Part shown: piece after piece, positions 34,149 through 64,000 of the stretch
Position numbering within the stretch: position 1 is the stretch's first letter
How the letters are laid out: each line of letters begins with the position of its first letter
From: Asterias amurensis
Taxonomy: Eukaryota; Echinodermata; Asteroidea; Forcipulatida; Asteriidae
Length of the DNA: 64,000 bases
NCBI RefSeq assembly: GCF_032118995.1
Contig: NC_092667.1
Span: forward strand, 5,448,931-5,512,930
Direction of reading: 5' to 3'
Notes under the pieces: model-generated
What the model saw: the letters and a program-made list of their open reading frames with translations, nothing else
The model's database searches: none
What the model was told of the DNA's origin: nothing
Translations under genes and position numbers: made by a program

Positions 34149-37100
34149 ATGAAAGAATTTCGGTTCCAGACATTGAAATCCCATAAAGGTGGATGCAGAT
34201 TGCGGTGTGGTGCTTGGATTATAATCTGCCTAGTAGTGGTATCAGCGCTCGCACAAACTAACGGTTTGTCAACTCGTATTTCTCTTTTAACCTTTGAATT
34301 TTTGACAAACTTTGTACCACAAAAGTCAAATCTCTAAAAACTTATCTTTTTATGTCACGGGTTTTCAAGGACTATAATAAATTTTGTTGTAGTGTGTTTT
34401 CCTTTACACCCGGGCAGGTTGGATATTTTGTGTGCACAACAAGTCTTTATCAACGGTTTAAACACCCCCACGTGACGCGCTCTCCACCAATAGGAATAGC
34501 GAAACTGTCTGAGGTATTTATGAATAATAATTATTGATGAACTTCCGGGTTTTAATTTGTTTCTTCTTTTTGGATCTTTATCAGCACCAGGTCATCTCGG
34601 ATGTTTTGTGGATGAGAGAAATCGCGCTCTCAAAGGTGGCTCCAGAACCTTCGACCCTCTTTCCGTTCAGCGATGTTTCAAACATTGCCAAGACGATTTA
34701 CATGTCGACTACACGTACGCTGGTTTGGAATATGCAGAAGAATGTTACTGCGGTAATAATGAGAACTATGGACGACACGGTCGAGGAAAGGAGTCGGACT
34801 GCGAGAAGTACACGTGCACGGGGGACTCTGACCAGTTTTGCGGCGGCAGTTGGCGAATAGCAATCTACAAAAGTAAGCCAATCACACTTCAATTTTGGGA
34901 ATAAAAGGGTAGCGACTGGTTAAAACCATCAGGGTCGAGGCCGTGCGATTAAGGGCCGAGCCAAAGCGAGGGCCTTCACTTTCGGTCGTCACGTCACGTC
35001 TGCAGCATGTAGCGTTCATAATGTTTGTGTGCACGTAGTACATTACATATCATGCAATTATGTTTTTATAATGGTTGATTACATGTACGAGGGATTTGAG
35101 TGCGAATCTCCATGTAAAATGAAGCGAGGTCACGAACGCTCATGGTGGACGGGGATTGACGTAGGCTCAAGAGTCATGGTCTCTAAACGTAATTCACGAG
35201 CCTGGAAGTGTAAAGTCAGATGTTCAGGATATCAGTTGTGACGAGTCGTGATAAAGATTAATCAACAAGAGGGCGCTATTTTATCCCCCTGTAGACATAA
35301 ACATCTGCTTTACTAAAAACTGAAATCGATCCCTGTTGTGGATTAAAGAATAAAACATTGCTATTTGTATTTTGTCAGTTTCACAAGGAGTATGCAGCAA
35401 TGCAATAGGCCCACCTGCCCATGGAACCAACTCGATCACCAACCCGAGTGGTCTGTCTTATAATTTAGACAACTACAAGTTCCTCGGGACAGAGGTGAAT
35501 TTCTTCTGCGATGCTGGTTATGTTCTCGATGGGTCTTCTACCATTATGTGCCTCGTACAGGAGAACACCGTTGGCTGGAGTGACACTGTACCAACGTGTA
35601 GAGGTAATACGCCTGTATATGTAGTATTATTTGATGAAAAATTGTATTATTATTTTCCCTGAAAGCTTTCCAAATTGGAATACTGCCACGTGCAAGATTT
35701 GTTATCTGTGATCCATATTTGGCAAAAGCGATCAAAGCAGATAACAAACAATAAAAGACTATTTCAGAGTAACCGACTATTTTTCTACGAAATATTTTGA
35801 CCAACCCAATATATTGATCCGTCCGTCTTATCGAATGACCCAAAATATCGACCCGTCCGTCTTATCGACTGACTCACTTACTCCAATTTTCGATTTTAAT
35901 AATGTGACCGACTATTCAATAATATCTCTTTGAGAATAGGCCAAATGTGGTCCTCAAATAAAGTTTATTTTGCACACCACTCTCAGAGCTCAGAACTTCC
36001 TAAGAACATGCTGGTATATATGCCAGTATCCACACTTTGTGTGACCCAAGATGACATCACAAACTTTTGAAACTTAAAACTCAATCGGTCGTCAATTTAT
36101 TGGAAATGGATTACCCTCTCTGACCAGTCCAGCGTCAAAGGGAAACCTTAACTGATACACCTATTTTGTTTCTCCTCGTCTAAGCTGTTATACCATCGAC
36201 GATTCCAACGACCACTGTGCCCACAACAACCACGACTGCGCCCTCAACCGGTAAGATAACAACCACAAACGCGAGTCGTGCGCCACCATCGAGCACCGAG
36301 GCAGCGTCGACAAAATCCCAGCAAACACTCACTTTAGACAAAGGTATGAATCAAGGAGATCTTTAAAAAATTGAAACCGGCTGGTTTTATCATTAAAATA
36401 CATCAGAACATGGTCACAATAATAGCTTACGTCACAGCACGTTTATCCAATGAAATCATTGTATCAAATGAACGCACTGGCCGGGCCTGATAAGACCAGT
36501 GGTTGGAGGATAAAAAGACAGGGAACAGTCTAAGTCAAACTTATAGCCTGAACATCTGACGTCACACTTCGAGGCTCGTGAAACACGCCAGAGACCTGCT
36601 TCCAAACCGGCGTGTATTTTCACCTTTCACCTCATTCCATTCACATAGAGATACGCAGTCAAAATCTATTGCGGACGTGACAGCAGTGTTCTGTTTAGGC
36701 ATGTAAAGCTCATGTCACTGCACTTATCCAATTATATCATTGTATCCAATGCAATCACTGGATCATGAGCAGGATAAAGACAGGGGCCCAGTCTAAGTCA
36801 AACATTACCCTTTTGGGGACGCTAGGTGGCAGCAACACCAACAGGTCAATTCAACCGTTTCAGTAAACAGTGTGTACACATAGAATGGCTGCTGCCTCAA
36901 ATGCCTTGCGTTTCCAACTGCGCTTTAAATTGACACAACATTCCTATATATTATCCTTACTTATAACTTAAAAATATGTTTGTTAAACAACAATCTTCTT
37001 TTATTGTATAGGCAGCCTCATTGGAATTGTTATTGGAGTACTATTAGCAGTTATCATTGGCCTCGCCTTCATCATTTTTATCTGCAGAAAAAGGTAAGTT

Positions 37101-37670
37101 CAAACAACAAACATAAACAAACAGAAAGTTGCAACCCGGCCTTGGACGGTAAAAACAAAAAAGGGTATTTGCAAAAAGGTCTATGTAACAAAAATAGCGA
37201 CCTCTGTCGTCCTCACTTTTCAACTTTGCAACTTTCTAGACGCAAATCTCACTATTTTCTATACATTTTTTTTATTCAAAAGAAGAAGCAAGAGGAAGGC
37301 GTCACCCTCTGCTGTTGCCACGGATACGATGGGGATGAGTTTCTCAAACAATATGTACGAAATCACAGTTCAAACGACGGAGAGGGACCCTCAAGAACCA
37401 AACCAAAACCCACAAGCACAGCTCTACAGTGAGGTTATTCGGAAACAGTCCAGGAGTGGCGAGAGTAATTACGTCAACGCAGTCATTCAGCCATCTTCGG
37501 GGGCCCATGAGAATGCTGGAACTGGATTGGTTGACAATGTTCTGTACGAGAGTTCCTCGTTCAGAGACGAGCCAGATATGGCGGGAAATGATTCAGAAAT
37601 GGCGGGAAACGATTCAAATGGACGGTACGAGTCATTCACAACTGCGAAAGAAAATCCAGGATGGGTTTAA
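34149..37670 (+). CDS. R1: WSC-CCP-mucin stalk-TM receptor, tail class 1
   Basis: Exons 34149-34263, 34585-34872, 35379-35603, 36185-36343, 37012-37093, 37283-37670; 418 residues. Modules map to exons: signal peptide (GAWIIICLVVVSALAQTN); WSC domain with 8 Cys (LGCF...RCFKHC...ECYCGN...CEKYTC...FCGG); CCP/sushi with 4 Cys (VCSN, FFCDAGY, IMC, VPTC); Thr/Pro-rich stalk; TM helix (LIGIVIGVLLAVIIGLAFII, GxxxG) followed by RKR; cytoplasmic tail with NMYEIT, QLYSEVI, SNYVNAV, NVLYESS, GRYESF. The extracellular junctions are phase 1 (shuffling type); TM-to-tail is phase 2. The donor of exon 1 (GTTTGT) is weak but phase-consistent. AATAAA 50 bp after the stop (37720). Type I membrane protein; WSC domains bind carbohydrate in several families, so a recognition receptor is inferred. 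An acceptor 3 bases downstream (exon 6 from 37286) is also possible. Confidence 0.85.
36819..36833 (+). promoter_or_regulatory. CTCF-like motif in R1 intron 4
   Basis: ACGCTAGGTGGCAGC, 13 of 15 to the CTCF core. A degenerate inverted partner (GGCTGCTGCC) follows near 36890. Confidence 0.35.
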
Positions 37671-38670
37671 AATATCATTTATGAATGAATCCCTTTCGAT
37701 AATAATGGTACAGAAAGAGAATAAAGCCAACAAGCAAATACATTTCCTGGCTGTGGTTGTTGATTTAGAAAGTGAAATACAACCAATAGCCGACGACTCC
37801 TTGTTGACACGCCCTTGGCTCGTTTGGACAAACGGGCGGGAACGATTTTTGGGAACGATGCCTCGGAGTGTCCGATAACTATCCATATTGGACTCCAATA
37901 TTGGAGCACCATGTCAGTAAAACATAGCAAAATAATAGATAATGACGCACGATTCACCAATCAAATGCGAAGGATCTGTTCCTAGTGAACAGTCACGTGG
38001 TCATAGTTAGCCTTTAGAGGATTTGTCTCGCTATATTATTTCATTATTATATAAGCTTGATACTAAGACGTGCTATGCCGAAAAGGACCCGAAAAAGGAT
38101 CCGAAAAAGGATCCGAAAAAGGAATTTTGTGTGATCTCTAGATTAGCAGCAAGGAGCTTTGTGATGACTAATAGCTCATACAATTTAAAATCAAGGCCCA
38201 GAGGTATAGTTTCAGGCAAATAATATAATTGATTTGATTTTTTAAATATTTTGTTGAGTATTTATTTAATACCTAAGCTGTTAGCATTTTTATGTTGACC
38301 CTATAATGTGGAGTGTGGTTGACAACCATCTGCATACCACGGGACGTTTTTTTTTATACATGTATAAAGCAACACGAATGCCTCAACATTAAAGGCACTG
38401 CATAGAACCTTACTTGGTAACGAGCAACGGAGAGCTCTTGATAATATAAAACTTTGTGAAAAACGACTCCCTAAAATAATAGAAGACTTCTGGCCGGATA
38501 CCTTTTCCTATCAAAAAGCACACTATTTTATACAACAAAGGTGTTTTTCCATCATTTTGTCGCAACTTCAATGCCCAATTGAGTCCAAATTTGTACAGGT
38601 TTGTTATTTTATGCATTTATGTCTTACTTATTGTATGTAGATTCTATAAAACATAGCAACCAAAATGTTC
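37671..38670. other. R1 3' flank
   Basis: Poly(A) signal at 37720-37725. A 12-base tandem repeat (GGATCCGAAAAA-type, three to four units) at about 38083-38122. A reverse TTAA-family MITE fragment at about 38390-38630. No gene. Confidence 0.5.
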
Positions 38671-39837
38671 AATTTTAACAACAATAAACTTGCCATGTAA
38701 AACTGAAAGAGCAGTATCTGACTATAATTTATAGAAAGAGATTTTAAATTTGCATCGAGGAATAATGAGACGAGAACACTAGATAAGCCTGTTGGTGCTT
38801 GATGAAGCATCCACTCTCATAGAACCTGAATGAATGAATAAGATGGCTGGATGAATAAGATGCTGTGTCTTGTGGAGGTAGAGTTTATGGTTACTTAAAT
38901 TAAGAGCTAAAGCAACTAATGAAAATTACCATTTCTAATGACCCTCGAACACAATAACTTTAAACTCGTATTAAACAAAGGAGGATATAATATTTGCCAT
39001 GGCAGGCATTCTAATGTACTCAAATAAAAAAAGGCCAAAGTGTACAATAATATGCCAAACACGGATTTGAACTAGCGAGGGCTCTTTAGGCTCTGTTATT
39101 CATTATCACCCACCCAAAACCTATGTATACCGTGGTTTTACACCATGGAATGCGAAATATATCCTGTACGTTTTTCAATAAAGCCTAAACCTTATACATT
39201 ATGAACTTAAAATGAAAACAACATCCTCCGAACATTGCACTGTGACTGTACTTCTGATCACTGACTGGAACGAACGCACAAAGCTGGTTTTGCAAAGTAC
39301 ACAGACTGCATTGTATGATATTTTCGCTAAAACGAAGTGGTGTAGGCCTACCGTATGAAGGGAACCATGTTCTTCTTTTCTAACTCTTACTGATTGGTAG
39401 CAGTTGTGGCCTGTACTTGAATCCCGTGCATATAGAACTACTCTTTATAAAGGTAAGCATTTCTTGTACAATATTAATAGCTTATTTATGACAAATAACA
39501 TCAAAAGACTGAAAGGAAAAGTAAAAGTGAAACAGATTTGAAAATAACGGGTGAATGCATGAGGAATTGTTACATTGATAAGTGTCTATACTAAAAAGGT
39601 TTTATACACAACCCAGACGTGGATATTGATCGAAACAGAATCATGGGTTTGAGTATAGTGTCGAATAGGGACATAATCTGGCGATGGAGGCACTATAGCC
39701 AGTCCAGACTATAGCCAGTCACAATTGGAAATAGTGGTCCGACACAAGGAGGTAAATGTCAACCAGCAGAACAAAACTCTCTACTCGTAATTCAAATATT
39801 CAAAAAAGTTTTAAAATTGAACAGTATTTGATTTCAG

Positions 39838-40664: not shown

Positions 40665-43600
40665 ATGCTTCATACATCGTACGGAGCTGCACTAATTTGG
40701 ACGGCGTTGGTTTATCAACTAATGACGTCATCAAATGCGCAGGCTACCGGTAAGAAACTCTCTCTCTCTATTACACAGTTTCAAGATCACTGCTTTAGGT
40801 TCTTGTCTTCGATGCCCACAACTCGTGCCTTTTATAAATACACTGAAAACAACTTGTGTGTGGTATAAAGTAAATATGTTTAAATTAAACTGCTTTTTAG
40901 TATAATGTAAATCCGTATTATTTGTTAACAAAAATAAAACGACGCTCGGTCTTGTGCTATGTAAGTTTAAAACCGAGAGAGCACCAGGAAACAATGTCGT
41001 TTTTCAAAAATAAAGCACCCCCATCACCCTCAAACGCATGATTGAGTGAAATAGTTATAACGGCTAATCTCCTTTTGGAAACATGTCATTTGGTGACCAC
41101 TATTAGAATTGCTATAACCTACGTTTGTATCGTTTTATAGGACCTGGATATTTGGGGTGCTTTAAAGATGGGTCATGGGGACCTCGGGTTTTGAGAGGGG
41201 ATTCAAAAACCTCAGACAGGTTGTCCGTGGAGTGGTGTTTCAATTACTGTGGCAGTAGATCCTATAAATATGCTGGTGTGGAATCTGAGACGGAGTGTTA
41301 CTGCGGAAACGACGAGGATTATGACAGACATGGGATAGCAGTAGACTCAGAGTGCCGTAATATTTGTCCAGGCAACTCATACCAATACTGCGGTGGTCAT
41401 TGGCGAATATCAATCTACAAAAGTAAGCTAAGAAACTATACTTGCCCCCCCCCCCAAACAAAATAAATAAATAAATAAATAAATAAATTATTTGCCCCCC
41501 CCCCCCCCAATTTGTAAAAATAAATGTGATAGTTCTTGGCTTAAAAACTCAACCAGCAGCTGTTTTTTTGGTAATTCCGCCCGATTGAGCGTTGGTTGAT
41601 AATTCAAGAACCTAGAAAAGGTACAGGGAAATGAGACATATTCCTAAAATCAATGCAAGTTTTATATCACACAACACTTTGCAGAAATTTTCTGCTATAA
41701 ATGAAGTCTTCTTGACTGCAGCTTGTTTAAATGATTCAACTTGTTTTTGAAAAGCAGAGGTGAACTTATACATTGTCACATAACATTACTCCGAAACGCC
41801 CGTTTCACACTAGGTAAAAATATAACATTATATTAAAGGCAGTGGACACTATTGGTAATAATTGTCAAAGACTAGTCTTCACAGTTGGTGTATCTCAACA
41901 TATGCATAAAATAACAAACCTGTGGAAAATTACTTCTTTCTCAAAAACTGAGGCACTTCAGAGGGAGCCGTTTCTCACAATGTTTAATACCATCAACCTC
42001 TCCCCATTACTCGTCACCAAGAAAGGTTTTATGCTAATAATTATTTGAGTAATTACCAATAGTGTCCACTGCATTTAAGTATACGTTTTAGGATGTGCAA
42101 ACTAAACCACATATGACTCCCAATCAAAGAATATTTTGTGTTTGACTTTCAGTTTCCGAAGGAGTTTGCAATAATGAAATTGGCCCACCAGTCCACGGGA
42201 GCCATGAAGTCACAAATCCTACCCACGTTTCTTATAGTTTATCAAACTCCAAGTTCTCCGGTACGCGAGTAACCTTCAAGTGTGACACTGGATACGATAT
42301 TCAAGGAGCCGAGACTATCGAATGCATAAAGAGGGCAAACATTGCAGAATGGAGCAACTCTGTACCAACATGTACAGCAGGTAAAGTCTCAATAACATGA
42401 CACTCTCACTTCCATTACTTTAACTTCACTGCGACTACTTTCATTGAGGTTTTATAAACTTTTTACACAGATGTTTAGGAAATTCAACGGGGCATACTTA
42501 ATCGCTCTTAGTAAAACACGGGCCTGTATCCTTGGTTTTTGAAAGGGCAGGGGCACCAAGGCATTTTTCCCTTGGTAAAGGGCACCCTATTATATGAGGA
42601 AATTGTAATTTTCTACTGGAGCATTTCAAGGGCACCAATGAAGGCAATGACCAGGGGGGCATGAGGCAATCGCCTTCGTTGGCGCCGTGAAGTATGGGCC
42701 TGAAAACAAAAACAATCAAATCCTATTGATAAATATGTGACATTAAGTATCCGTCCTTTTCCATATAGTTGTACCGCCGACAACTTTTGTATACACAGCA
42801 TCGCCCCCGACAACGACCCAGACTAATAACACACCCATGGCAATGACAACTGTTTCACACACAGTTACAAGTGTAGTGCCCCCGACTACGAACCAGACTA
42901 ACAACATGATAGTGACCGCCTCGTCGGGAGGGCCATCGAGTAACCCTGGTAACACCACTGATGATCGAGAGATGCCCAACCCACAAACATCCAAAACAGG
43001 TTTGTCTATCTAAAATTCATACCAGTTCAAATCGTCCACAGAAATAATATTTTCTCCCGAACTATGCTATTAAAGAACCTAATAGAAGATAATTATTGTG
43101 CTGTGATGACCCCAATGTCGCCAAGTATCTTAAACTTACTCATAATGTGTACAAAAGTCACCCCAAAACAATTATTATTGTTTTCAACAAAAAACCATAA
43201 TAGCGCCTCTGGATTTGGAAGCTTATTCATATCAGATCACAGTGTATATTCAGTGAACTACTGAGTAGGTACATCAAAGAGAACCGGAAGGAGTTTGGAG
43301 TTGCTATGAGTACTAGAAACCATGTCTCAAATCCGCTATTCTGGATAATGTTTATGTTTGTTAATCCAACCAGGGGCTTTCATTGGAATAGCAGTTGGAG
43401 TAATCGTATCCTTGATGATTCTCATTGTGATTGTCATTATTACCTTCAGAAAGAGGTAAGATGCAAACTGTCTTCAGATCACGTTTTTTAGTTTTCACGG
43501 GTTAGGTCAAAGATGCCCAACCTGAAGCATAAACTTAACTATGGATAGGGTCAATGTGACCAACACGGGTCACGCTGCTGACCATTTATCATTTATAGTT

Positions 43601-44336
43601 CAAATGAAATGCATTATAACTCCAAGACACATGTCTCAAATTACATCAAGTTTGACAGACTTGCATAAAAAGGACGCTCGGTGGCAGCAGACTCAACAGG
43701 ACAACAGGTAGATGAACTTTCCTTGGCAATAAAGCATATGAGGAACTTCATCAGGGAAAATAACCAGTTATGCTTGATGCAACCTGCCCTTTAAATTACG
43801 TCCACGACGTGTGCAAATGATTGCCTATAACAAGTAGGCCCTACTGTCGGGCAGTCGAAAAACTTACTAACCACATTGTTAATGAAACTATGTTGTCCTA
43901 TAAAATATACAGGCAAAAAAGAAGAGACGGGGGAATAGATGGTGCCAATGGTACAGTCAACACGAACCAAGCTGACGTCACTCCAGGGTTAGCCTACGAA
44001 ATTCCAAGCCGTCTGGGTACAGTTAACTCAAACCCACCAGAATATGACGTCATTAAAGACTCAACGTACGAAACTTCAAGTCCTAAGGGCGCAATTAATC
44101 CCAATTCGCCGGAATATGACGTCATTACAGACTCAACGTATGAAACTCCAAGCCCTGCAGCTGCAGTCAATCCGAATTCGAAAGAATCTGATGTCACTAC
44201 AAATGCGATGTCAGCGTACGAGATTCCCAATCCGCCTCCAACAAATAAAAACCACAAATTCACTCAAGAGCAGTCCAGTAATGACATTGTTCACGAGTAT
44301 GCAGATATCAAGTTGACGTCACTGAGTCAGAATTAG
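40665..44336 (+). CDS. R2: WSC-CCP-mucin stalk-TM receptor, tail class 2
   Basis: Exons 40665-40749, 41141-41422, 42153-42380, 42769-42999, 43374-43455, 43913-44336; 443 residues. Signal peptide of 28 residues (MLHTSYGAALIWTALVYQLM); WSC with 8 Cys (YLGCFKDG, EWCFNYC, ECYCGN, SECRNIC, YQYCGG); CCP (VCNNEIGPP, FKCDTGY, IECIK, VPTC); Thr/Asn-rich stalk; TM AFIGIAVGVIVSLMILIVIV with GxxxG, then FRKR. The tail holds LAYEIP, EYDVI, STYETS, EYDVI, STYETP, SAYEIP and HEYADIKL in loosely repeated units. YxxP sites fit Crk/Nck-type SH2 ligands once phosphorylated; YxxI sites fit sorting or ITIM-like use (inference). Exon 1 acceptor-like TTTCAG at 40646 implies an upstream leader exon. AATAAA at 44356. 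Confidence 0.88.
41833..42078 (+). mobile_element. Internally deleted TTAA MITE in R2 intron 2
   Basis: 246 bp with TTAA at both ends. Lacks about 140 internal bases present in the R3 counterpart (48396-48783), from after CCTGTG to GGAAAATTAC. R4 carries the same deletion (56106-56351). Confidence 0.9.
43674..43688 (+). promoter_or_regulatory. CTCF-like motif in R2 intron 5
   Basis: ACGCTCGGTGGCAGC, 12 of 15 to the CTCF core. Also in R3 intron 5 at 50474-50488. Confidence 0.25.
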
Positions 44337-44954
44337 ACCAGGCTGATGACATCGTAATAAATCATAGCTCTATCATCTATCATCCAACGACTAAAACTTA
44401 TATAAAAACAGGGCACAGTGGCATAGTTTTCAGCAAATATGGTTGATTTAATTTCAGGGGGAGCGATTTGCAAATATTTTGCCGAGTGTTTTTTTTAGTA
44501 TTCAACATTTTTGGAATTTGTTGATAGATCCATGAGGAACGTGTTTCGATTTTGAATCGATAGAGGGCGTATAAGTCACTGGTTTATGCGATCTTTGGAC
44601 AATATGCAGCAAGGAGCTTTGCAACATTCAATGGCTAAACCTTTTACAAATAGAAAACAGGTCCCACGGGTATCCAGCAAAAATAAAACTTGATTTATTT
44701 CAAGGGGCTGAAAGATCAGCAAATATTTTTTTAAAAATAATGTTGAATGTTATTGCATAAAGCATTGGTATGCGTTTAATAATGTATTGCTAATCTGAGG
44801 AACTCTTAGTGATACTTGAAACATTATGTATATCACTGGATTGATTCATCTTCTAAAGCAACGAATGCCTCATTATTAAAACATATATCTACGAAAGAAC
44901 AGTTCATAACGAAATGTCTTACAAATTTACGAAGATTCGAGATAAAAAGTGTTC
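44337..44954. other. R2 3' flank
   Basis: AATAAA at 44356-44361. The rest is AT-rich and partly homologous to the R3 3' flank (CAAATAGAAAACAGG, TTGATTTATTTCAAGGGGCT). No gene. Confidence 0.6.
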
Positions 44955-50200: not shown

Positions 50201-51130
50201 AATCGTATCCTTGATGATTCTGATTGTGATTGTCATTATTACCTTCAGAAAGAGGTAAGATGCAAACTGTCTTCAGATCACGTTTTTTAGTTTTCACGGG
50301 TTAGGTCAAAGAGGCCCAATCTGAAGCATAAACTTAACTATGGATAGGGTCAATGTGACCAACACGGGTCACGCTGCTGACCATTTATCATTTAAAGTTC
50401 AAATGAAATGCATTGTAACTACCAAGACACATGTCTCAAATTACATCAAGTTTGACAGACTTGCATAAAAAGGACGCTCGGTGGCAGCAGACTCAACAGG
50501 ACAACAGGTAGATGCACTTTCCTTGGCAATAAAGCACATGAGGAATTTCATCAGGGAAAATAACCAGTTATGCTTGATGCAACCTGCCCTTTAAATTACG
50601 TCCACGACGTGTGAAAATGATTGCCTATATAACAAGTACTGTCACGGGCAGTTGAAAAACCTAACCACATTGTTAAGTAAACTATGTTGTCCTACAAAAT
50701 ATACAGGCAAAAAAGAAGAGACGGGGGAATAGATGGTGCCAATGGTACAGTCAACACGAAACAAGCTGACGTCACTCCAGGGTTAGCCTACGAAATTCCA
50801 AGCCGTCTGGGTACAGTTAACTCAAACCCACCAGAATATGACGTCATTAAAGACTCAACGTACGAAACTTCAAGTCCTAAGGGCGCAATTAATCCCAATT
50901 CGCTGGAATATGACGTCATTACAGACTCAATGTATGAAACTCCAAGCCCTGCAGCTGCAGTCAATCCGAATTCGAAAGAATCTGATGTCACTACAAATGC
51001 GATGTCAGCGTACGAGATTCCTAATCCGCCTCCAACAAATAAAAACCACAAATTCACTCAAGAGCAGTCCAGTAATGACATTGTTCACGAGTATGCAGAT
51101 ATCAAGTTGACGTCACTGAGTCAGAATTAG
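47264..51130 (+). CDS. R3: WSC-CCP-mucin stalk-TM receptor, tail class 2
   Basis: Exons 47264-47348, 47714-47995, 48858-49085, 49481-49777, 50173-50254, 50707-51130; 465 residues. Same plan and intron phases as R2. The WSC differs moderately (YLGCFEDWQIGGRDLRG; WCFSYC; ECYCGNN; SECRNIC; NQYCGG), and so does the CCP (ANGMRKVTNPTHVYYSS; FECDPGY). The stalk exon is 66 bp longer than in R2 because a 22-residue unit (TSHTxTSVVPPTxNQTN) is present once more. TM and tail are almost identical to R2, with a few changes such as STYETP to SMYETP. AATAAA near 51212. The ectodomain is thus more diverged than the tail, consistent with relaxed or positive selection outside or conversion inside; a dN/dS test would tell. 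Confidence 0.88.
48396..48783 (+). mobile_element. TTAA MITE, full length, in R3 intron 2
   Basis: 388 bp with TTAA ends. Same insertion site as 41833 and 56106, so it predates the receptor duplications. Confidence 0.9.
49544..49690 (+). repeat. In-frame 66-bp minisatellite in R3 stalk
   Basis: Units of 22 codons (ACTTCACACACA...CCGACTACGAACCAGACTAA-type). R2 and R4 have one unit fewer. Adds Ser/Thr-rich, probably O-glycosylated stalk length. Confidence 0.8.
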
Positions 51131-52344: not shown

Positions 52345-54937
52345 GTGTTCCATGTTAACAACAATAAAATAAAACTTGCCATGTAAAACTGAAAGAGCAG
52401 TATCTGACTTTTATTTATAGAAAGAGATTTTAAATTTGCATCGGGATAAATAACGAGACGAGAACACGAGAGCACCCTTGATGAAACATCCACTCTCAGT
52501 ATAAGAACCTAAATGAATGAATAAGATGGCTGGATGAACAAGGTGCTACTGTCTTGTGGAGGTAGAGTTTATATTTCATATTTTCGGGAATAATTTGTGC
52601 ATGGTTACTTAAAGTCACCTGGAAATAGAATTTTTTTTTCTTTCAAACATAAGAGTATATGCTTACGAACAATAAAACAATTTTTTTAGTAATTGTTTGT
52701 CACGATTTATATGTTTAAAAAATATATAAAGTTGTTTGGGGGGCTGACTCCGCCTACCCCTTTTGTGACGTCAATCGAGGCAGACTTTGCCTGCAATGCG
52801 CATAGTAAACACAGGTGCAAAGTACATGTACGTCCAAGTCGTGAGTTGGTACATTTCAAAAAGTGTTTTTTTCTGCATTCAGCAGCAATACACCTGGTCG
52901 GCATTACCGGAAAAAAAACATTTTTTTTTAAACGTACAAACTCACGACTTGGTTCGTACATGTACTTTGCAATTGTGTTGACTCTACGCATTACAGGCAA
53001 AGTCTGCCTCGATTGACGTCACGAACAGCGCCCTCTCGGGTCGGGGTCTACTCTTCAATTTGTAAATAACATAAGAAATGATTTTTTAAAACCTTAGTTA
53101 ACTGTTTATTCACATTCCACTCATCAAAACACATATATTAGTGACAAAAGCTTTATTTTGAAAAAATACCACTTCCAGGTGACTTTAAATTAAGAGCTGA
53201 AGCAACTCGTGAAAATCACCAGTTCTAATTATCCTCCTTTAAACTCGTTACAAAGGAGGATATAATATTTGCCATGGCAGGCATTCTAATGTACTCAAAT
53301 AAAAAAGGCCAAAGTGTACAATAATATGCCAAACACGGATTTGAACTAGCGAGGGCTCTTTGGGCTCTGTTATTCATTATCACCCACTCAAAACCTATGT
53401 ATACCGTGGTTTTACACAATGGAATGCGGAACTAAAGAAAATATATCCTGTACGTTTTGCAATATAGGCTAAACCTTATACATGAACTAAAAATGAAAGC
53501 AACATCCTCCGAGCATTGCACTGTGACTGTACTTCTGATCACTGACTGGAACGAACGCAAGCTGGTTTGTACACAGACTGCAGTGTATGATATTTTCGCT
53601 AAAAAGAAGTGGTGTAGGCCTACCGTATGAAGGGAATCATGTTCTTCTTTTTTAACTCTTACTGATTGGTAGCGGTTGTGGCCTGTACTTGAATCCCGTG
53701 CATATAAAACTACTGTTTAAAGGTAAGCATTTCTTGTACAAATTATAATAGGCTATTTATGACAATAACATCAAAAGACTGAAAGGAAAACTAAAAGTGA
53801 AACAGATTTGAAAATAACGGGTGAATGCTTGAGGAATTGTTACATTGATAAGTGTCTATACTAAAAAGGTTTTATACACAACCCAGACGAAATTGAATTG
53901 ATCGAAACAGAATCATGGGTTTGAGTATAGTGTCGAATAGGGACATAATCTGGCGATGGAGGCACTATAGCCAGTCCAGACTATAGCCAGTCACAATTGG
54001 AAATAGTGGTCCGACACAAGGAGGTAAATGTCAACCAGCAGAACAAAACTCTCTACTCGTAATTCAAATATTCAAAAAAGTTTTAAAATTGAACAGTATT
54101 TGATTTCAGGCATTTGGAACCCAAACAATGCTTAAAATTCATACAAATAAACAGAATGCCTTCCTGAAAAATACTGCCTGAATAAAAATGCATTTAAATA
54201 TACATGTTTATACAGTGTCATCATGGGAGATGCAATGATTCCAGGGTGGATTTCACAAAGAGTTAGGACTAGTCTTATCTCGAGTTAGGACGAGTTTAGT
54301 CCTAACTTAGGACTAGCTGTACGTTTTTGATATCTCTTAGGACTAGTCCTAAGTTAGGACTAGTCCTAACTCTTTGTGAAATCGACCCCTGGGAAAAATA
54401 ATGCCTCGCTAAATAGGATATGATTTTGAGTTGAGTGTTGACTAGGGACAGAATTTGTTGAACTTGGTAACGAGTAATGGGGAAATGCTGATAGTATAAA
54501 GCATTGTGAGAAACGGCTCCCTCTGAAGTAACGTAGTTTTCGACAAAGGAGTAATTGTCCACGAATTTGATTTCGAGACCTCAGAATTAGATTTTGAGGT
54601 CAATAAATCAAACATCTGGAAGCACACAACTTCGTGTGACAAGGGTGTTTTTTCTTTCAATATTATCTCGCAACTTCGACGACCAATTGAGCTCAAATTT
54701 TCACAGGTTTTTTACTAATTATGTTAAGATACAGCAAGTGAGAAGACTGGTCTTGCACAATTACCAATAGTGTCCAGAGTCCTTAATGGCAACACTTATA
54801 ATACAATGGAAACTTTGAAAGTGTAGTCCGACGCAAGGAATTAAAACACACCCAGTTAGTACAACACGAACTCATATTCTTATACAAAATATTTAGTTAC
54901 TTGTACAATTTGATTTCAGGCATTTGGAACCAAAACA
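52345..54937 (+). repeat. Receptor spacer, copy 3 (R3-R4), interrupted
   Basis: From about 53260 it is nearly identical to the R1-R2 spacer, including foldback (54239-54391), decayed exon 1 (about 54108) and reverse MITE. It is interrupted by the 52613-53184 insertion. Confidence 0.88.
52613..53184. mobile_element. 572-bp foldback element with TTAA duplication
   Basis: Ends AGTCACCTGGAA and TTCCAGGTGACT. TTAA on each side (52609-52612, 53185-53188). Inner inverted repeats of ~110 bp (GACGTCAATCGAGGCAGACT near 52767 and its complement near 53003-53022). The R1-R2 and R2-R3 spacers show the empty site (GTTACTTAAAT). piggyBac-type target choice; non-coding. Confidence 0.88.
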
Positions 54938-57900
54938 ATGCTTCATACATCGTACGGAGCTGCACTAATTTGGACGGCGTTGGTTTATCAACTAATGACG
55001 TCATCAAATGCGCAGGCTACCGGTAAGAAACTCTCTCTCTCTATTACACAGTTTCAAGATCACTGCTTTAGGTTCTTGTCTTCGATGCCCACAACTCGTG
55101 CCTTTTATAAATACACTGAAAACAACTTGTGTGTGGTATAAAGTAAATATGTTTAAATTAAACTGCTTTTTAGTATAATGTAAATCCGTATTATTTGTTA
55201 ACAAAAATAAAACGACGCTCGGTCTTGTGCTATGTAAGTTTAAAACCGAGAGAGCACCAGGAAACAATGTCATTTTTCAAAAATAAAGCACCCCCATCAC
55301 CCTCAAACGCATGATTGAGTGAAATAGTTATAACGGCTAATGTCCTTTTGGAAACATCTCATTTGGTGACCACTATTAGAATTGCTATAACCTACGTTTG
55401 TATCGTTTTATAGGACCTGGATATTTGGGGTGCTTTAAAGATGGGTCATGGGGACGTCGGGTTTTGAGAGGGGATTCAAAAACCTCAGACAGGTTGTCCG
55501 TGGAGTGGTGTTTCAATTACTGTGGCAGTAGATCCTATAAATATGCTGGTGTGGAATCTGAGACGGAGTGTTACTGCGGAAACGACGAGGATTATGACAG
55601 ACAAGGGATAGCAGTAGACTCAGAGTGCCGTAATATTTGTCCAGGCAACTTATACCAATACTGCGGTGGTCATTGGCGAATATCAATCTACAAAAGTAAG
55701 CTAAGAAACTATACTTGCCCCCCCCCCCCAAACAAAATAAATAAATAAATAAATAAATAAATTATTTGCCCCCCCCCCCCAATTTGTAAAGAAAAAATGT
55801 GATAGTTCTTGGCTTAAAAACTCAACCAGCAGCTGTTTTTTGGGTAATTCCGCCCGATTGAGCGTTGGTTGATAATTCAAGTACCAGGAAAAGGTACAGG
55901 GAAATGAGACATATTCCTAAAATCAATGCAAGTTTTATATCACACAACACTTTGCAGAAATTTTCTGCTATAAATGAAGTCTTCTTGACTGCAGCTTGTT
56001 TAAATGATTCAACTTGTTTTTGAAAAGCAGAGGTGAACTTATACATTGTCACATAACATTACTCCGAAACGCCCGTTTCACACTAGGTAAAAATATAACA
56101 TTATATTAAAGGCAGTGGACACTATTGGTAGTAATTGTCAAAGACTAGTCTTCACAGTTGGTGTATCTCAACATATGCATAAAATAACAAACCTGTGGAA
56201 AATTACTTCTTTCTCAAAAACTGAGGCACTTCAGAGGGAGCCGTTTCTCACAATGTTTAATACCATCAACCTCTCCCCATTACTCGTCACCAAGAAAGGT
56301 TTTATGCTAATAATTATTTGAGTAATTACCAATAGTGTCCACTGCATTTAAGTATACGTTTTAGGATGTGCAAACTAAACCACATATGACTCCCAATCAA
56401 AGAATATTTTGTGTTTGACTTTCAGTTTCCGAAGGAGTTTGCAATAATGAAATTGGCCCACCAGTCCACGGGAGCCATGAAGTCACAAATCCTACCCACG
56501 TTTCTTATAGTTTATCAAACTCCAAGTTCTCCGGTACGCGAGTAACCTTCAAGTGTGACACTGGATACGATATTCAAGGAGCCGAGACTATCGAATGCAT
56601 AAAGAGGGCAAACATTGCAGAATGGAGCAACTCTGTACCAACATGTACAGCAGGTAAAGTCTCAATAACATGACACTCTCACTTCCATTACTTTAACTTC
56701 ACTGCGACTACTTTCATTGAGGTTTTATAAACTTTTTACACAGATGTTTAGAAAATTCAACGGGGCATACTTAATCGCTCTTAGTAAAACACGGGCCTGT
56801 ATCCTTGGTTTTTGAAAGGGCAGGGGCACCAAGGAATTTTTTCCCTTGGTAAAGGGCACCCTATTATATGAGGAAATTGTAATTTTCTACTGGAGCATTT
56901 CAAGGGCACCAATGAAGGCAATGACCAGGGGGGCATGAGGCAATCGCCTTCGTTGGCGCCGTGAAGTATGGGCCTGAAAACAAAAACAATCAAATCCTAT
57001 TGATAAATATGTGACATTAAGTATCCGTCCTTTTCCATATAGTTGTACCGCCGACAACTTTTGTATACACAGAATCGCCCCCGACAACGACCCAGACTAA
57101 TAACACACCCATGGCAATGACAACTGTTTCACACACAGTTACAAGTGTAGTGCCCCCGACTACGAACCAGACTAACAACATGATAGTGACCGCCTCGTCG
57201 GGAGGGCCATCGAGTAACCCTGGTGACACCACTGAAGGGCGAGAGATGCCAAACCCACAAGCATCTCAGACAGGTATATGTTTACTAAATTCCACACACC
57301 GCAGCTGGTCCAAAATCGCAGAGAAAATATTAGTCTTGGCCAAGACGTTTCTCCTTTCCCTTTCACGCACACCGCGGCCAAATCACCAACAGCGCCCGCA
57401 ACGACTCACCTGACTTAGTCCACTCACCGTCCCGTGGACTAAGTCAGGTGAGTCGGTGCGGGCGCTATCGGTGAATTGGCCGCGGTGTGCGTGAAAGGGA
57501 CACGAGAAACGTCTTGCACCAAGACTAAGAAAATATATACCCTCTAGCAATCGATGTACATGTAAATCATCTTATCAATGTTCCATGACCACCATGGCCC
57601 AATCACAAGTAGCTAAGCACAATAAAATATTGCTAACCAGAATATGGTTTCTGGCCAATCTTATACATGTATATCACATGTACAATTTACGACTGGTATC
57701 CGGCTCATTCCTGCGTAGCAGAAAATGGTTAAGCAATGTTTTTTGTTTAAGCAGCTCTATGAACTTGGACCCAGTAGTCCTGCTTTCTCCTGAAGACGAG
57801 CAGAGATACTGTTCGAAACGTCGAGACCACATGTTCTTTTCAAAGTCAATTCTTATACTAAAAGGATTTCATATGTTGTACCCACAAGTTACCTATTTAT

Positions 57901-59762
57901 TTATAGTTTCTTGGGTAAAAACAAAATGAATATTCTTTATCCCCGATGCAAATTAAACATCTAATAGAACAAGATTACCGATTATTTTCATTAAAATCCT
58001 GAGGATGGGAATGAATTTACTCAATGGCAAGTTTAAGGAGAAGCAAAACAAAATAACAACGATGTCTATATCTTTCAAAATAAAATAAAATAAACAATTT
58101 CGAAAGAAAGAAATGAGTTTAGGAAAGTGTTGATTTGGGATTTCAAAGAGTTGCATCGGTACGTTTGAATGTTTCTTCTATACTATCCCACAGGGACTAT
58201 TATAGGAACAAGTGTTGGAGTGATCTCAGCTTTGGTTATTCTTCTGGTAGTTGTCATAATTCTTTTACGAAGGAGGTAAATAGAACACTCAATATCTGAG
58301 GAAACGTAACATGTAACCACATCTTGGTTAAGGGCCTTCAAGATAGGTCCTTTTTGAAACTACGGCTTCGGTTTGAGGTTCCGTTCTCGCGTCTGAAGCC
58401 CTCTGGGCGCGTACGCACTTCAGAACAACCTGCGGGAGCAAGCCTGAGCCGAATCCAAAGACGAAGCCGTCGTTTCGAAAAAGCCATGATTCTGCCAGGT
58501 TCGAAACGTCTAACCACTAACTAGTTTTGTATTTATACCATCCTTTGGGCTGGTTAGCAGTTTACAACAACTAATTCTAATTTCAAATTTGTTTTACTTG
58601 TATTGTTAGAGAAACTTCAATTATACATAAATGAATACGTTCATGTATATAAACAATGTAGGCCTACATCAATAAATCAATTTATTAACACAATTAATAA
58701 AAACTGCAGAAGATTTAACATAAAGGGTGATTGGTACACTTCCTCGAAAGGGTTAAAGGACGCGAATAACTTCCTATATGAGTGGTTATTTCCGTGTGTG
58801 TTTGACATTGTCATATAGCAAGCTAAATGTCATGACATATCAACCAATGCTCCTAAATATTAACAGGGACGCCAGGTAAAACACTTTGTTTCGTTTTTAA
58901 ATCGAAACCTTCCATTATCTCAACCCGTAACCTTCGAAAGCTTTAGTATGGGTAATTTGTGAGTTTCAAATATGGCTCAATGCACTGTATTTCCTTTTAG
59001 TGAAAGAGATGTCAAGTATAGGCGATTCTAATTTACTTTCTACTAATGGTGTTGAGCTTCGAATCAGGGAGGCTTCGCATGCGAACGGATATGGTTAGTG
59101 CGTCAGATACGTTATCATTATGACGTCATACGCTACTCGCTATCTGCTATACGTGCATGTAGACGACACTGATATCCTGCTTGCTACACGTAAGTAGGTT
59201 ACGGAGTAAACGTATGCGTATGCGTACTATCCGTTCGCGTGCGAAACCTCCCTATTATGCCACCTGCCACGTATATACGGGGCTAGAAGTGCTCCAACAT
59301 GAACCTGTAAAACGCACTTATAACTGTGTGCATTTTTGTTTATCTGTCAGAGACAACAAGAGGAACGCAAGCTCTGACGTGGCAATGGCTGAAGTTACAT
59401 CCACCATCAACCAGACCCAAAGAGACTCTGACGTCGTCAGCACAGAACCAAACTCAGCCTCAACTATACCAGTATACAGTCAAGTTATCAAGAACCGGAC
59501 TAAAAACGAAAACGTGTACGCGAATGCCGATGACGTCACTAATTTAGCAGCGGAGTCGGCGTATGAAGTTAACTTAGATATCCAGCCTTCTTCAAATAAA
59601 GACGAAAATGAAACCGGAATGGTTGACAATATCCTGTATGATAGTTCAGCATTGAAAGACGAGTCAGAGATGAGGAACAATGGTCTAAACGAAGAGCATG
59701 TTGAGGCCTTAACAACCATGGAAGAACAGCCAGGATGGGTTGAAAATATTATTTACGAATAA
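54938..59762 (+). CDS. R4: chimeric receptor, R2-like ectodomain with tail class 1
   Basis: Exons 54938-55022, 55414-55695, 56426-56653, 57043-57273, 58194-58275, 59351-59762; 439 residues, intact. Signal peptide, WSC and CCP are almost identical to R2; I see three residue changes in the WSC exon (P to R, H to Q, S to L). From about 57225 in the stalk exon the match drops. TM (TIIGTSVGVISALVILLVVV, GxxxG, then RRR) and tail belong with R1: VYSQVIK (R1 LYSEVIR), NVYANA (R1 NYVNA), GMVDNILYDSSALKDE (R1 GLVDNVLYESSSFRDE), PGWV near the end, plus a C-terminal NIIYE absent from R1. All junctions are phase-compatible, so the product should be functional. AATAAA at 60417. Alternative: the two halves are not spliced together, but exons 1-4 have no other nearby partner. 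Confidence 0.85.
56106..56351 (+). mobile_element. Internally deleted TTAA MITE in R4 intron 2
   Basis: 246 bp, same deletion as in R2 (41833-42078), full length in R3. Confidence 0.9.
57331..57527. mobile_element. 197-bp palindromic MITE in R4 intron 4
   Basis: Arms of ~92 bp, from TAGTCTTGGCCAAGACGTTT to its imperfect complement, with a short centre near 57421-57435. AGAAAATAT flanks both sides (57322-57330, 57528-57536), a 9-bp target duplication. Termini (TAGTCTTG) resemble those of 45980-46705 (TAGCCTTG), so probably the same superfamily. Confidence 0.85.
57640..57975 (+). other. Possible retroelement tail in R4 intron 4
   Basis: CTCCTGAAGACGAGCAGAG then CTGTTCGAAACGTCGAGACC resembles the end region of Penelope-like or similar retroelements. 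GAATATTCTTTATCCCCGAT also occurs at about 12657 in the X1 intron. Truncated and non-coding. Confidence 0.35.
58328..58495. repeat. Hairpin repeat in R4 intron 5
   Basis: TTTTTGAAACTACGGCTTCG pairs imperfectly with GAAGCCGTCGTTTCGAAAAA. Related to 7310-7430 upstream of CCM2. Confidence 0.6.
59066..59253. mobile_element. MITE with GGGAGG termini, R4 intron 5
   Basis: Ends CAGGGAGGCTTCGCATGCGA and TCGCGTGCGAAACCTCCCTA, about 188 bp, ending 97 bp before the tail exon. Compare 33264-33519. Confidence 0.65.
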
Positions 59763-61570
59763 TATGCAATACTTATATAGCTATATATCAAAATATTATG
59801 GGCATTGGATTTAAATCCTGCGGTAAATTTCACTAAAAGCTGGGATTGATCTATAGACGAGTCGGCAAATGAGTTTACCATAATTCCAAAACAAGAACAA
59901 CAAAAACATTGACACTTACATCGACAACGACAACAACAGCGACAATGCAATCGACAACGACATCGACAATGAAAACGACAGCAACCACAACATCGACAGC
60001 AACAACATCGACATAACAACATCGACAGCGACAACATCGACAGCGACAACGACAGCAACAACATCGACAGCAACATCAACAGCGACAGCAACAACATCAA
60101 CAGCGACAACAACAGCGACAGAGACACCGACAACGACATTGACAACGACATCAACAACGACATCAACAATGAACAATAAGGACAGTGAATGCTTTAGAGT
60201 ACAAGGCAATGGCGTGCCTGTTACAACACTAGTGTGGGTCTGTGTAAGAGAAATAATTATGTTTGAACAAAATCATATTTGTTTACCCTTGAGTCTATGC
60301 GGGCTTCAGTTTTAATCAATATTTTTGTTGTAACTATTGTATCTGCAAGCTTACCTCAATTCTTCTGTCGGATGCGTTCAGAGAGTTCAACATCTGTAAT
60401 CATCATATCCTTTGTAAATAAAGTCAAAGAGAGTGAAACCGAGAGTGAAACATGTAACCATAAAATACTGTATTAAATAACTGAAAGGTTTGACATCACA
60501 CACACACTTTTCAAGCACTGAGTATCAGTGCTTAGTCGGTGTAAAGGTTGAAATAGATTATAACACTTCATGCGTTTGTACTTCAATTTGACAAACTTCG
60601 ATTTGGAAATACAAAATTAGGATTGGGGTACATTTAATTGTCAGTCACCTTCTTAAAAAAGGGTACATTAAACAACAATGCAGTTGTACTTAAAATAAAA
60701 AAGTGTACATTATAAGGGATTGGGGGGGGGGGGGGTGAGATTTAACAAAGAGTTGAACTGATAAATTATTTTACCCGTCGTCGTGTATACATTGTACAAC
60801 AGCATTTCAATATTAAAGCTGTTGGAACTGAAAGTATGCCTGCCAAATTTTATCTGAGTTTCAAATTATGTCTTCAGGAAAATGCTTGTTGTTTTGAATT
60901 GGTATTACTGCTTAATTTCTGCTTCATTATCGAATTATAATGAGGTCTATAATGGAATGGCGCTATATAAAAAGCCCATTGTATAATCACAGCATATTTA
61001 TATGACTTGATTTTTGTTTGCATAGTATTGCTTTAAACAAATTGCATAATACTGCTTTAAACAAATCGCATAAGCCACTACGACGACAATGAATTTGATC
61101 TTGGTTTTTTTCTTTGAGTTTTATTGTAAAGAACAAGCTGGTTATTTTATACACGTAACACGTTGTTATTTTTTGTATGTACTCTGCACTTTGTGTCAAC
61201 GCAAGTATACAAGGGAAACGCTTCATACTAAAATAAAGCTCATGCTTTTACTAACATAATTAACTTAATGGACAACAAAGTTTGTATTATTATTAGGGAA
61301 TAATTAAGCCACTTTCAAATGAAAATGTGTTTAAACTGATTCTTGTCTGTAACTGCCGAGAGAGGGGGGCCAACTAATGTAACCTATAGAGTTGATTATC
61401 TGAGAGGGACTGAATAAGTCTACAAAATTGGGTCAATACCCGGGCCAAATTTCATAGAGCTGCTTAAATAATTGCTTGAATCAATTCTGCTTAGCAGAAT
61501 TTAGCATGATACCAGTCACAAATGTTTACATGTAACATAGTAGTTTGGCTGGTAGCCTTATTCTGGTAAG
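59763..61570. other. R4 3' flank
   Basis: An imperfect GACAAC/ATCGACA minisatellite at about 59905-60170 leaves long but spurious open frames on both strands. AATAAA at 60417-60422. A poly-G run at about 60721-60736. No gene seen between 60480 and 61570. Confidence 0.6.
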
Positions 61571-61868
61571 CTTTTGCTATGACGTCATTAAAGACTCAAC
61601 GTACGAAACTTCAAGTCCTAAGGGCGCAATTAATCCCAATTCGCCGGAATATGACGTCATTACAGACTCAACGTATGAAACTCCAAGCCCTGCAGCTGCA
61701 GTCAATCCGAATTCGAAAGAATCTGATGTCACTACAAGTGCGATGTCAGCGTACGAGATTCCTAATCCGCCTCCAACAAATAAAAACCACAAATTCACTC
61801 AAGAGCAGTCCAGTAATGACATTGTTCATGAGTATGCAGATATCAAGTTGACGTCACTGAGTCAGAAT
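61571..61868 (+). pseudogene. Orphan 3' part of a class 2 receptor tail exon
   Basis: From EYDVI-equivalent TATGACGTCATTAAAGACTC to the TAG it is almost identical to R3 (50837-51130) and R2. It lacks the first 43 or so codons and the splice acceptor of that exon. There is no TM exon of this class between it and R4. The following 1.3 kb also matches the R3 3' flank. Probably the surviving end of a class 2 gene displaced by the recombination that made R4. Confidence 0.88.
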
Positions 61869-63150
61869 TAGACCAGGCTGATGACATCATGACTTGATCC
61901 GGAGTCATAGCGACACACCCTTTTCAGGTGTTGAGGTGTAATATTTAATAGTAATAAAGGTAAATTCGGATCAGAGAGTTTGTAAAAAGCAAGAAAATGA
62001 CAATTTGAGAAATAATTCTAGCAACATTGCTTGTATAAAATGCCCTGTCGAGTACACTTTAAATGTAAATGCCATGTAGAAAGATCATAATAGCTTTTTA
62101 AAAAAAAGGGGGCCATCTTTACTAATGTTTTTCTCGCATTAGCCTCAAACTTTTTGATGATGTCACAAGTCAATGGTTTGAAAACGTTCTCTGCATAAGC
62201 ATGTTGTAAGTTTGGAGAAGGGAAAAGGTTTTTAAAGGATGGAAGTTTTCTTTATAATCCGGGTTGGTCTGGAAAAGGGCCGTGTTTCTCCCTCCGACAA
62301 AACTAATAGGAACTCGTCCAGCACGTCAAACTTATTAAACTTTTTTTTTTTTAGGGGGGGGGGTACATAAAAAAAAATTCTGACTTCAACAAATAACACC
62401 TGATCCAGAGTTGTTGCTTAATGGTGGTTTCAAGTACTTGACCTATGTTTATGACTTTAAAGACCTGTATCTGTTTCGATTTTAAGTCGATAGAGGGGGC
62501 ACACTAATCATAGTTTGTTTGATCCCTAGTATATGCAGCAAGGATCTTCGTAATAAATCATAGCTCTATCATTCAACCGTTACGACTAAACTTATATAAA
62601 TACAAGGCCCAGTGGTATAGTTTTCAGCAAATAAGTTTGATCTGATTTCAGGGGAAGACAAATTTGCAAACACTGTTGAGCATTTTTCGAATATTCAGCA
62701 TTAGATGCATTTTTAGTTATGTGTTGATAATTACGAGGAACTTAATTGATAGAGGGCGTACTGTCATAATTTGTGTCATCACTAGATATGACGCATAGCT
62801 CTATGACATACAATGGTTAACCCTTTTACAAATAGAAAACAGGCCCCACGGGTATCCAGCAAAAATAAAACTTGATTTATTTCAAGGGGCTGAAAGATTA
62901 GCAAATATTTGTTTAAATAATATTTTTGAATATTATTGCATAAAGCATTGGTATGCGTTTAATAATGTATTGCTGATATGAGGAACTCTTAGTGATACTT
63001 TATGACAACATTCTGTATATCACTGGATTGATTCATCTTCTAAAGCAACGAATGCCTCATTATTAAAACATATATCTACGAACGAACAGCTTATAACGAA
63101 ATGTCTTAGAAATTCACGAAGATTCGAGATAAAATATAGCAAAATTGTTC
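61869..63150 (+). repeat. Copy of the R3 3' flank
   Basis: Parallels 51131-52344 closely, with small indels and a length-changed poly-T/poly-G region near 62340. Confidence 0.85.
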
Positions 63151-64000
63151 CATGTTAACAACAAGAAAATAAAACCTGCCATGTATATATTAAAAACAGA
63201 AAGAGCAGTATCTTAATTTTATTTATAGGAAGAGATGTTAAATTCGCATCGGCGATAAAATAATGAGATGAGAACACTAGATAAGCCTGGTGGTGCTTGA
63301 TGAAGCATCCACTCGGTATAATAACCTGAATGAATGAATAAGATGGCTGGATGAATAAGATGCTGTGGGAGAATTTATATTTTCATATAAGGGAATAGTT
63401 TGTGGCTACGTAAATTAAGAGCAGAAGCAACTCATGAAAAGCAACATAATGGGTTAAGATCCTCAAACATTACTTTAAATTCGTAACAAAGGAAGATATA
63501 TTATTTGCCATGGAAGGCATTCCATGAATAAGAGCACCGAATTCAAACTCTGGTGTTTCTGATCAGCAGAGTGTGTCCCCAGCCGTGACACTATTGTCCT
63601 AAGCAAGACACTTAACCATTGCTTCGTCCTTTGGATGGGACGTAAAGCCGTTGGTCCCGTGTGTTGTAACGCACGTAAAAGAACCCAGTGCACTTGATCG
63701 AAAAGAGAAGGGGTTGGCCCCGGTGTTCCTGGCTGGATTGGCGGCATATTGCGCCACACCACCTTGTAAACCATTACACGGTGCTATGTAAAAGGAGTAG
63801 ATCATAACTCAAAAACCTAGTCCCACATACCTTGCAGGAAATACTGTATGTTTCAGCACTTTGAGACGCCCTTCGGGTGTATAAAGCGCTATATAAATAT
63901 CGACTATTATAATTATTATTATATTATTCTAATATACTCAACTAAAAAAGGCCAAAGTGTACAACAATGTTAATTTATACCAAACACGGATTTGAATTAG
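63151..64000 (+). repeat. Receptor spacer, copy 4, runs off the window
   Basis: Spacer sequence (GCCATGTATAT, GAGATGAGAACACTAGATAAG) resumes after a SINE as CTAATATACTCAACTAAAAA and GGCCAAAGTGTACAACAATG at the last bases. In the other copies this spacer leads to a receptor promoter, so another gene may follow. Confidence 0.8.
63523..63925 (+). mobile_element. tRNA-derived SINE inserted in spacer copy 4
   Basis: Body AAGAACCCAGTGCACTTGAT and GGAGTAGATCATAACTC, ATT-repeat tail. Interrupts GGCATTC/TAATGTACTC, which is continuous in the other spacers. Same family as 4565-4978 with a shortened head. Confidence 0.75.

Follow-up and report, generated by a model that had tools for sequence, protein, structure and literature searches.

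The 64,000-nucleotide stretch of the Asterias amurensis genome analysed here (C20:5448931-5512930, C20 being contig NC_092667.1; hereafter the window) contains four of six tandemly arranged genes that are predicted to encode single-pass type I receptors. In genes 1 to 4 the exons encode, in order, a signal peptide, a WSC domain, a sushi (CCP) domain, a Ser/Thr-rich stalk, a transmembrane (TM) helix and a tyrosine-bearing cytoplasmic tail. Units 2 to 5 form a two-by-two set, in which each of two ectodomain lineages is found with each of two TM and tail lineages. This exchange of ectodomain and tail is the strongest result of the analysis and is new here. As to function, the sequences lead us, at about even confidence, to regard the products as phosphotyrosine-signalling recognition receptors, probably immune ones.

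The genome comprises 491,506,623 bases in 23 contigs. Exon models for genes 1 to 6 were made by setting splice sites by hand on canonical AG/GT, and coordinates above 64000 extend the numbering of the window into the adjoining genome sequence.

Two ectodomain lineages are joined to two tails

We compared units 2 to 5 at informative sites, with gap columns excluded; the signal exon has no such site. From intron 1 to intron 3, 103 of 103 sites group unit 2 with unit 4 and unit 3 with unit 5 (24 in intron 1, 11 in the WSC exon, 11 in intron 2, 23 in the CCP exon and 34 in intron 3), and none backs another split. From the stalk exon onward, 601 of 602 sites (5 + 146 + 26 + 205 + 219) group unit 2 with unit 3 and unit 4 with unit 5, and one backs another split; much of this second tally comes from aligning two tail lineages that are not related. 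All four lineage combinations are present as units, and therefore at least one recombination is needed. Three of the combinations sit in intact genes, namely lineage I with tail B in gene 2, lineage II with tail B in gene 3 and lineage I with tail A in gene 4; gene 5 supplies the remaining one, lineage II with tail A.

The same pattern was evident when the sequence was compared with itself by blastn. The segment 38895-43001, which holds upstream DNA and the ectodomain exons of unit 2, matches 53185-57275 of unit 4 on the same (+) strand at 97% identity. Unit 2 matches unit 3 over 42803-44353 (94%), from the stalk through the TM helix and tail, and unit 4 matches unit 5 from 56092 to 61576 (93%). 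Introns 1-3 of genes 2 and 4 are 98.6-99.2% identical, whereas introns 4-5 do not match and the TM helices and tails are of different kinds. The signal and CCP peptides of this pair are identical, and the WSC exons differ by three nonsynonymous changes; no synonymous change separates the two genes in signal, WSC or CCP. Genes 2 and 3, and likewise genes 4 and 5, present the reverse pattern by module, with shared tails that barely differ (three nonsynonymous and one synonymous difference between genes 2 and 3; six and one between genes 4 and 5). The expectation of a first-pass annotation of this DNA, that the receptors are clustered and locally duplicating, is confirmed, and exchange between them is shown as well, by self-comparison, module comparison and informative sites. 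Its further proposal of exchangeable modules holds for the ectodomain against the TM helix and tail, where lineages change over within the stalk exon or immediately ahead of it. Modules were not seen to shuffle freely one by one.

In unit 4 the switch from unit 2-like to unit 5-like sequence falls at 57058-57073 (+), within the stalk exon; elsewhere three single sites deviate. In unit 3, where runs of fewer than three sites were left out, it falls at about 49438-49447, immediately upstream of the stalk exon. Introns 1 and 2 of unit 3 hold unit 2-like stretches when gap columns are counted, and no conflicting site when they are not; we take these stretches to be places where unit 5 probably lost or replaced sequence. 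Behind gene 4, blastn revealed the 3' part of a truncated type B tail exon (61578-61871, +). Because this remnant and its flank persist there, it is suggested that unit 4 formerly ended in tail B and then received the tail A segment. In phase 2 the remnant can be read without a stop from any of four AGs (61539, 61542, 61554 and 61569), and it is a possible alternative last exon that may give gene 4 a second spliced tail.

Between units 2 and 4, introns 1-3 are about 0.8% divergent, a plausible allelic distance, which would fit a mosaic created by the assembly through the joining of two haplotypes in tandem. We consider such an artefact very improbable. Over these introns the distances among units 2, 3 and 5 are 5-8%, tail A is unrelated to tail B, and the published Asterias amurensis assembly is described as having used HiFi reads, hifiasm and purge_dups (PMC10625585).

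Structure of the array

Four intact six-exon genes lie on the forward strand at 34149-59762 (25.6 kb from the start of gene 1 to the end of gene 4). Gene 1 (34149-37670) has its signal exon at 34149-34263, WSC at 34585-34872, CCP at 35379-35603, stalk at 36185-36343, TM at 37012-37093 and a tail, assigned to type A by tail comparison, at 37283-37670. The exons of gene 2 (40665-44336; ectodomain lineage I, tail type B) follow in the same order at 40665-40749, 41141-41422, 42153-42380, 42769-42999, 43374-43455 and 43913-44336. Those of gene 3 (47264-51130; lineage II, type B) are at 47264-47348, 47714-47995, 48858-49085, 49481-49777, 50173-50254 and 50707-51130, and those of gene 4 (54938-59762; lineage I, type A) at 54938-55022, 55414-55695, 56426-56653, 57043-57273, 58194-58275 and 59351-59762. 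The array runs beyond the window edge with two more units, which, like the tail remnant behind gene 4, had gone unnoticed at first pass. Gene 6 (72906-77777) is intact, and gene 5 (65560-70409) has the same exons with the end of exon 1 out of phase with exon 2, so that it may be dead or may use a different start.

Exit phases of 1, 1, 1, 1 and 2 are identical in genes 1 to 4, and the hand-placed exons give uninterrupted proteins. In the Pfam scan the WSC exons of units 1 to 4 scored E values of 2e-16 to 3e-20 and the Sushi exons 6e-8 to 9e-10, all eight being above the curated cut-offs. The WSC domain has eight cysteines and the CCP domain four; the stalks contain 36-46% Ser plus Thr and no cysteine. 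GxxxG is present in the TM helix of genes 1 to 5 and absent from that of gene 6. The four intact genes with this composition, the start at 34149, the rule of one module per exon and the phase 1 extracellular junctions had all been put forward in the first-pass annotation, and all were borne out. Gene 1 is an old paralogue of genes 2 and 6, with nonsynonymous divergence (dN) of 0.35-0.38 across WSC and CCP and synonymous divergence (dS) near or past saturation. Because these distant pairs (1/2 and 1/6) retain exon order and phases, the models are taken to be real coding exons, and chance is unlikely.

The spliced proteins also matched Podoplanin, TMEM154, Glycophorin A, TMEM51, RCR, RIFIN, MGC-24 and Adeno_E3_CR2 in Pfam, all under the cut-offs; we read these matches as mucin-stalk and TM composition and rejected them. 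A WSC structure predicted from the four window sequences reached a predicted local distance difference test score (pLDDT) of 55 and was set aside.

Tyrosine motifs of the cytoplasmic tails

The tails of genes 1 to 4 contain 5, 7, 7 and 5 tyrosines, in agreement with the five to seven counted at first pass. The type A tail (genes 1, 4, 5 and 6) carries YS[EQ]V. Genes 1, 4 and 5 also share YxN, and the tails of genes 4, 5 and 6 end in WVxNxIYE; in gene 1 an in-frame stop precedes the segment that bears the last tyrosine of the other three. The type B tail (genes 2 and 3) contains internal repeats, as judged by eye, with YEIP, YDVI, YETS/P, YADI and YxxP sites. When the gene 4 tail was searched against its own genome, three matches were obtained, which are genes 4, 5 and 1. 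Gene 6 was not matched at E 0.001, and its type A label depends on the shared motifs and on 35 of 101 residues identical to gene 1. A search with tail B gave five matches: genes 2 and 3, the remnant behind gene 4 and, on contig C13, a broken copy matched in two pieces.

Tyrosine followed by E, D or S is over-represented relative to shuffled sequences in genes 1 to 5 (p 0.001-0.034), with p 0.11 in gene 6. For YxxP, enrichment was obtained in genes 2, 3 and 6 (p about 0.02) but not in gene 5 (p 0.17), and genes 1 and 4 lack the motif. In no array gene does YxxPhi clearly exceed the shuffled level (p 0.06-0.69 in genes 1 to 4, 0.06-0.70 over all six). Taken one by one, the motif classes are weak. 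The TM strings contain no charged residue ahead of the juxtamembrane end. From these sequences the tails appear to suit general SH2 docking better than any named motif class.

Divergence of the ectodomains

Nonsynonymous differences in the WSC and CCP exons were compared with flanking introns to which synonymous sites had been added; the pairs share history and the p values are uncorrected. In the 3/4 pair, nonsynonymous differences per site reach 0.115 in WSC and 0.145 in CCP, against 0.064 and 0.074 in the flanking introns (p 0.02 and 0.008). The 2/3 pair gave p 0.07 for WSC and 0.02 for CCP. When unit 3 is set against unit 2 or unit 4, the WSC and CCP excess corresponds to odds ratios of 1.6-2.0 (p 0.008-0.07), and in the 3/5 pair to 2.0 for WSC (p 0.04). 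The WSC differences among units 2 to 5 lie in a few stretches, and YAGVESETECYCGN is unchanged, as judged by eye. These figures may hint at diversifying selection on the ectodomains and are not proof of it.

Divergent ectodomains in locally exchanging genes would also be expected of gamete or allorecognition receptors that diversify under sexual or self/non-self selection. Sea-urchin SpREJ6, 7 and 10 are reported to carry WSC domains as well (PMC1934368). The SpREJ proteins are, however, PKD1-type and of other architecture, and we judge this explanation distinctly improbable. A sex-linked position of the array was also considered; a candidate sex region of A. amurensis has been placed on chromosome 10 (PMC11757944), in a numbering that may not match the contig numbers used here.

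A wider WSC-CCP family

Genome-wide counts of WSC and kringle matches are lower bounds, since only the best candidates were scored. At least 35 WSC matches were found, at least 19 of them on the 15.2-Mb contig C20 (six in the array and 13 elsewhere). Ten of the 13 loci outside the array were retrieved, and the neighbouring exon was scanned with Pfam in nine, L028 being left out. This exon is a Sushi domain above the cut-off at six loci (L017, L018, L019, L021, L025 and L032) and below it at L020; it is a CUB domain above the cut-off at L024 and below it at L023. L019 (8.18 Mb) and L021 (9.52 Mb) have WSC, CCP, TM and tyrosine-tail exons with entry phases 1, 1, 1 and 2, the same as in the array, as judged by eye, and no stalk exon was placed. 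WSC and CCP also occur at 6.00 Mb, together with a GWVENTVYE tail but with no TM exon that could be placed securely. C20:8153000-8182999 (L018, L019, L030) holds two of the WSC-CCP loci outside the array, and the frames downstream of them are very rich in tyrosine (15 and 14 Tyr).

A genome search with the CCP of gene 2 found 13 places, of which six are the array and one is the copy on C13. This dispersed type B copy (C13:15023000-15030400; L027, L029) has open signal, WSC and CCP exons. It was rejected as a seventh working gene, its tail being in two pieces, one with a stop.

Taken together, the array looks like a recent local expansion within an older WSC-CCP family, to judge from these matches. 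It had been stated at the outset that a widespread architecture with a known non-immune function would tell against recognition receptors. The first half of this applies, in that WSC-sushi pairs recur on the same chromosome; we know of no function for such pairs. The full architecture, from WSC and sushi through stalk and TM helix to tyrosine tail, is named in no title or abstract opening among the papers listed by searches of open full-text literature, a scope outside which subscription papers and preprints lie.

Proposed function and its weighing

We infer surface location, phosphorylation, ligand class and an immune role for these proteins. The outer part, in which a mucin-like stalk bears a Kremen-type WSC domain and a single sushi domain, would serve for binding; its ligand would most likely be a glycan, or a protein exposed on microbes, on foreign cells or on other coelomocytes. 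Tail tyrosines would then be phosphorylated, supposedly by Src-family kinases, and SH2 proteins recruited. The two ectodomain lineages would have been joined to the two tails by gene conversion or unequal recombination, at a point within the stalk exon or beside it, and one recognition surface could in this way feed two signalling outputs. The suggested role in immunity or self/non-self recognition draws on the architecture, on ectodomain tests that are suggestive and partly negative, and on an amphioxus receptor with leucine-rich repeats (LRR), a WSC domain and a TM helix. We further propose, tentatively and with clearly less confidence, a non-vertebrate paired-receptor system, in which the joint at the stalk exon puts either ectodomain on either tyrosine tail, with different and possibly opposing outputs, within a chromosome-wide WSC family.

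Several observations weigh against the main proposal. Six units are few for an immune multigene family, the identity of the 2/4 ectodomains may be high enough for allelic duplication in the assembly, and the fourth combination is present only in gene 5, whose exon 1 is out of phase. The WSC sequence is nearest to that of Kremen-1, a developmental receptor. By eye, a strict immunoreceptor tyrosine-based inhibitory motif (ITIM; [SIVL]xYxx[ILV]) is found in gene 3 only (LEYDVI), the YxxV/I sites of genes 1, 2, 4, 5 and 6 being without the ITIM residue at -2. The corresponding activation motif (ITAM; YxxI/L-x(6-12)-YxxI/L) was seen by eye in none of the six tail sequences, and identity as canonical ITAM receptors was rejected for this reason. 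As for the divergence tests, which are non-independent and uncorrected, no significant nonsynonymous excess was obtained in the 2/5 and 4/5 pairs (p 0.06-0.63), in the CCP of the 3/5 pair (p 0.86) or in the 2/4 pair (p 0.4-0.6). Synonymous rates in CCP are as high as nonsynonymous ones, and dN/dS above 1 was not demonstrated; only the intron comparison is suggestive, in some pairs.

Other features of the window

Two tandem copies of an apparently secreted gene, 73% identical, lie at 12257-14018 and 17396-20134 (+), each with a short first and a long second frame. The long frames matched no Pfam family above the cut-off, and the predicted structure (pLDDT 34) was unusable. Exons of the ornithine/arginine decarboxylase type were found at 27494-28898 (-), with two of three frames above the cut-off for Orn_Arg_deC_N. 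A long simple-sequence tract at 14100-14560 has several open frames (VCLF / KQTN repeats).

Comparison with known systems

Kremen-1 is a developmental (Wnt) receptor, a type I membrane protein with the order kringle-WSC-CUB-TM. It provides the closest solved WSC domain to that of gene 2 (E 7e-23). Kremens are described as containing kringle, WSC and CUB domains (PMC3927612). The proteins of genes 1 to 4, in contrast, have a sushi domain where CUB would be, and a tyrosine-rich tail. No kringle or CUB was found in the spliced proteins of genes 1, 2 and 6 or in the WSC and CCP exons of genes 3 and 4, the parts of those two genes that were scanned, and Kremen orthology was rejected on this basis. 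At least 26 kringle matches were found in the genome, the nearest lying about 0.4 Mb from any WSC match; on these lower-bound lists, a canonical Kremen may be missing from the genome. At 11.10 Mb on C20 (L024) a WSC exon and a CUB exon are followed by a tyrosine-rich open frame, a Kremen-like pair with no kringle seen nearby. The array could accordingly be imagined as Kremen-derived co-receptors that replace a lost Kremen and modulate Wnt or some other developmental ligand, and that were duplicated without taking on a part in immunity. The WSC likeness and the WSC-CUB neighbours on the same chromosome would agree with this, whereas kringle and CUB are lacking in what was scanned of the array, and tyrosine-rich tails and recent duplication with tail exchange are not known of Kremen. 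We regard it as rather unlikely.

The sushi module is shared with the complement receptors and regulators CR1, CR2, CD55 and factor H, and CR1, CR2, factor H and CD55 are also the top-scoring solved relatives of the gene 2 CCP. The array genes might in that case encode complement or opsonin receptors, with a CCP that would recognise target-bound C3 fragments or thioester proteins and a tail that would drive phagocytosis. The known complement proteins, however, have many CCPs and are not known to have a WSC domain. The run of several consecutive CCPs that marks the regulators of complement activation was not found in the array, where genes 1, 2 and 6 have one Sushi stretch and each model has one CCP exon. 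Long multi-CCP chains gain score partly through repetition, and CCP use extends far beyond complement, with E-selectin, MASP-1 and beta-2-glycoprotein among the same relatives. A complement function seems unlikely.

For recognition receptors that signal through phosphotyrosine, the nearest functional precedent is BbLcLRR of amphioxus. It is described as an LRR-WSC-TM receptor with ITIM-like YATV and YSEV motifs; Lck phosphorylates it, and in T cells SHIP1 associates with it (PMC8211107). It resembles the array genes in its WSC ectodomain, single TM helix and YxxV tail motifs, including YSEV. It differs in having LRR rather than sushi in the ectodomain, and neither an array nor an exchange of tails is mentioned in the available part of its description. 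A WSC-domain gene is also listed among candidates at a Daphnia resistance locus (PMC9894429), which we take as a lead only.

The two-by-two set itself is best compared with paired receptors, which are the same outside and signal differently inside, and are best known from vertebrate immune clusters. KIR, LILR, SIRP and PIR are clustered, and recombination has put near-identical ectodomains on different signalling ends. Genes 2 and 4, and the set as a whole, have this arrangement, with near-identical ectodomains and different signalling ends in one cluster. The vertebrate receptors differ in having Ig or lectin ectodomains, and those of them that activate rely on an adaptor and a charged residue in the TM helix, whereas tyrosines are present in both tails of the array. 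If the proposal is true, the WSC domain would gain a recognition role beside its Kremen and polycystin contexts, and the switch interval would be an exact place to compare across individuals and species. The array would then be a clean echinoderm two-by-two case without Ig or lectin domains, in which the same evolutionary solution was built from other parts.

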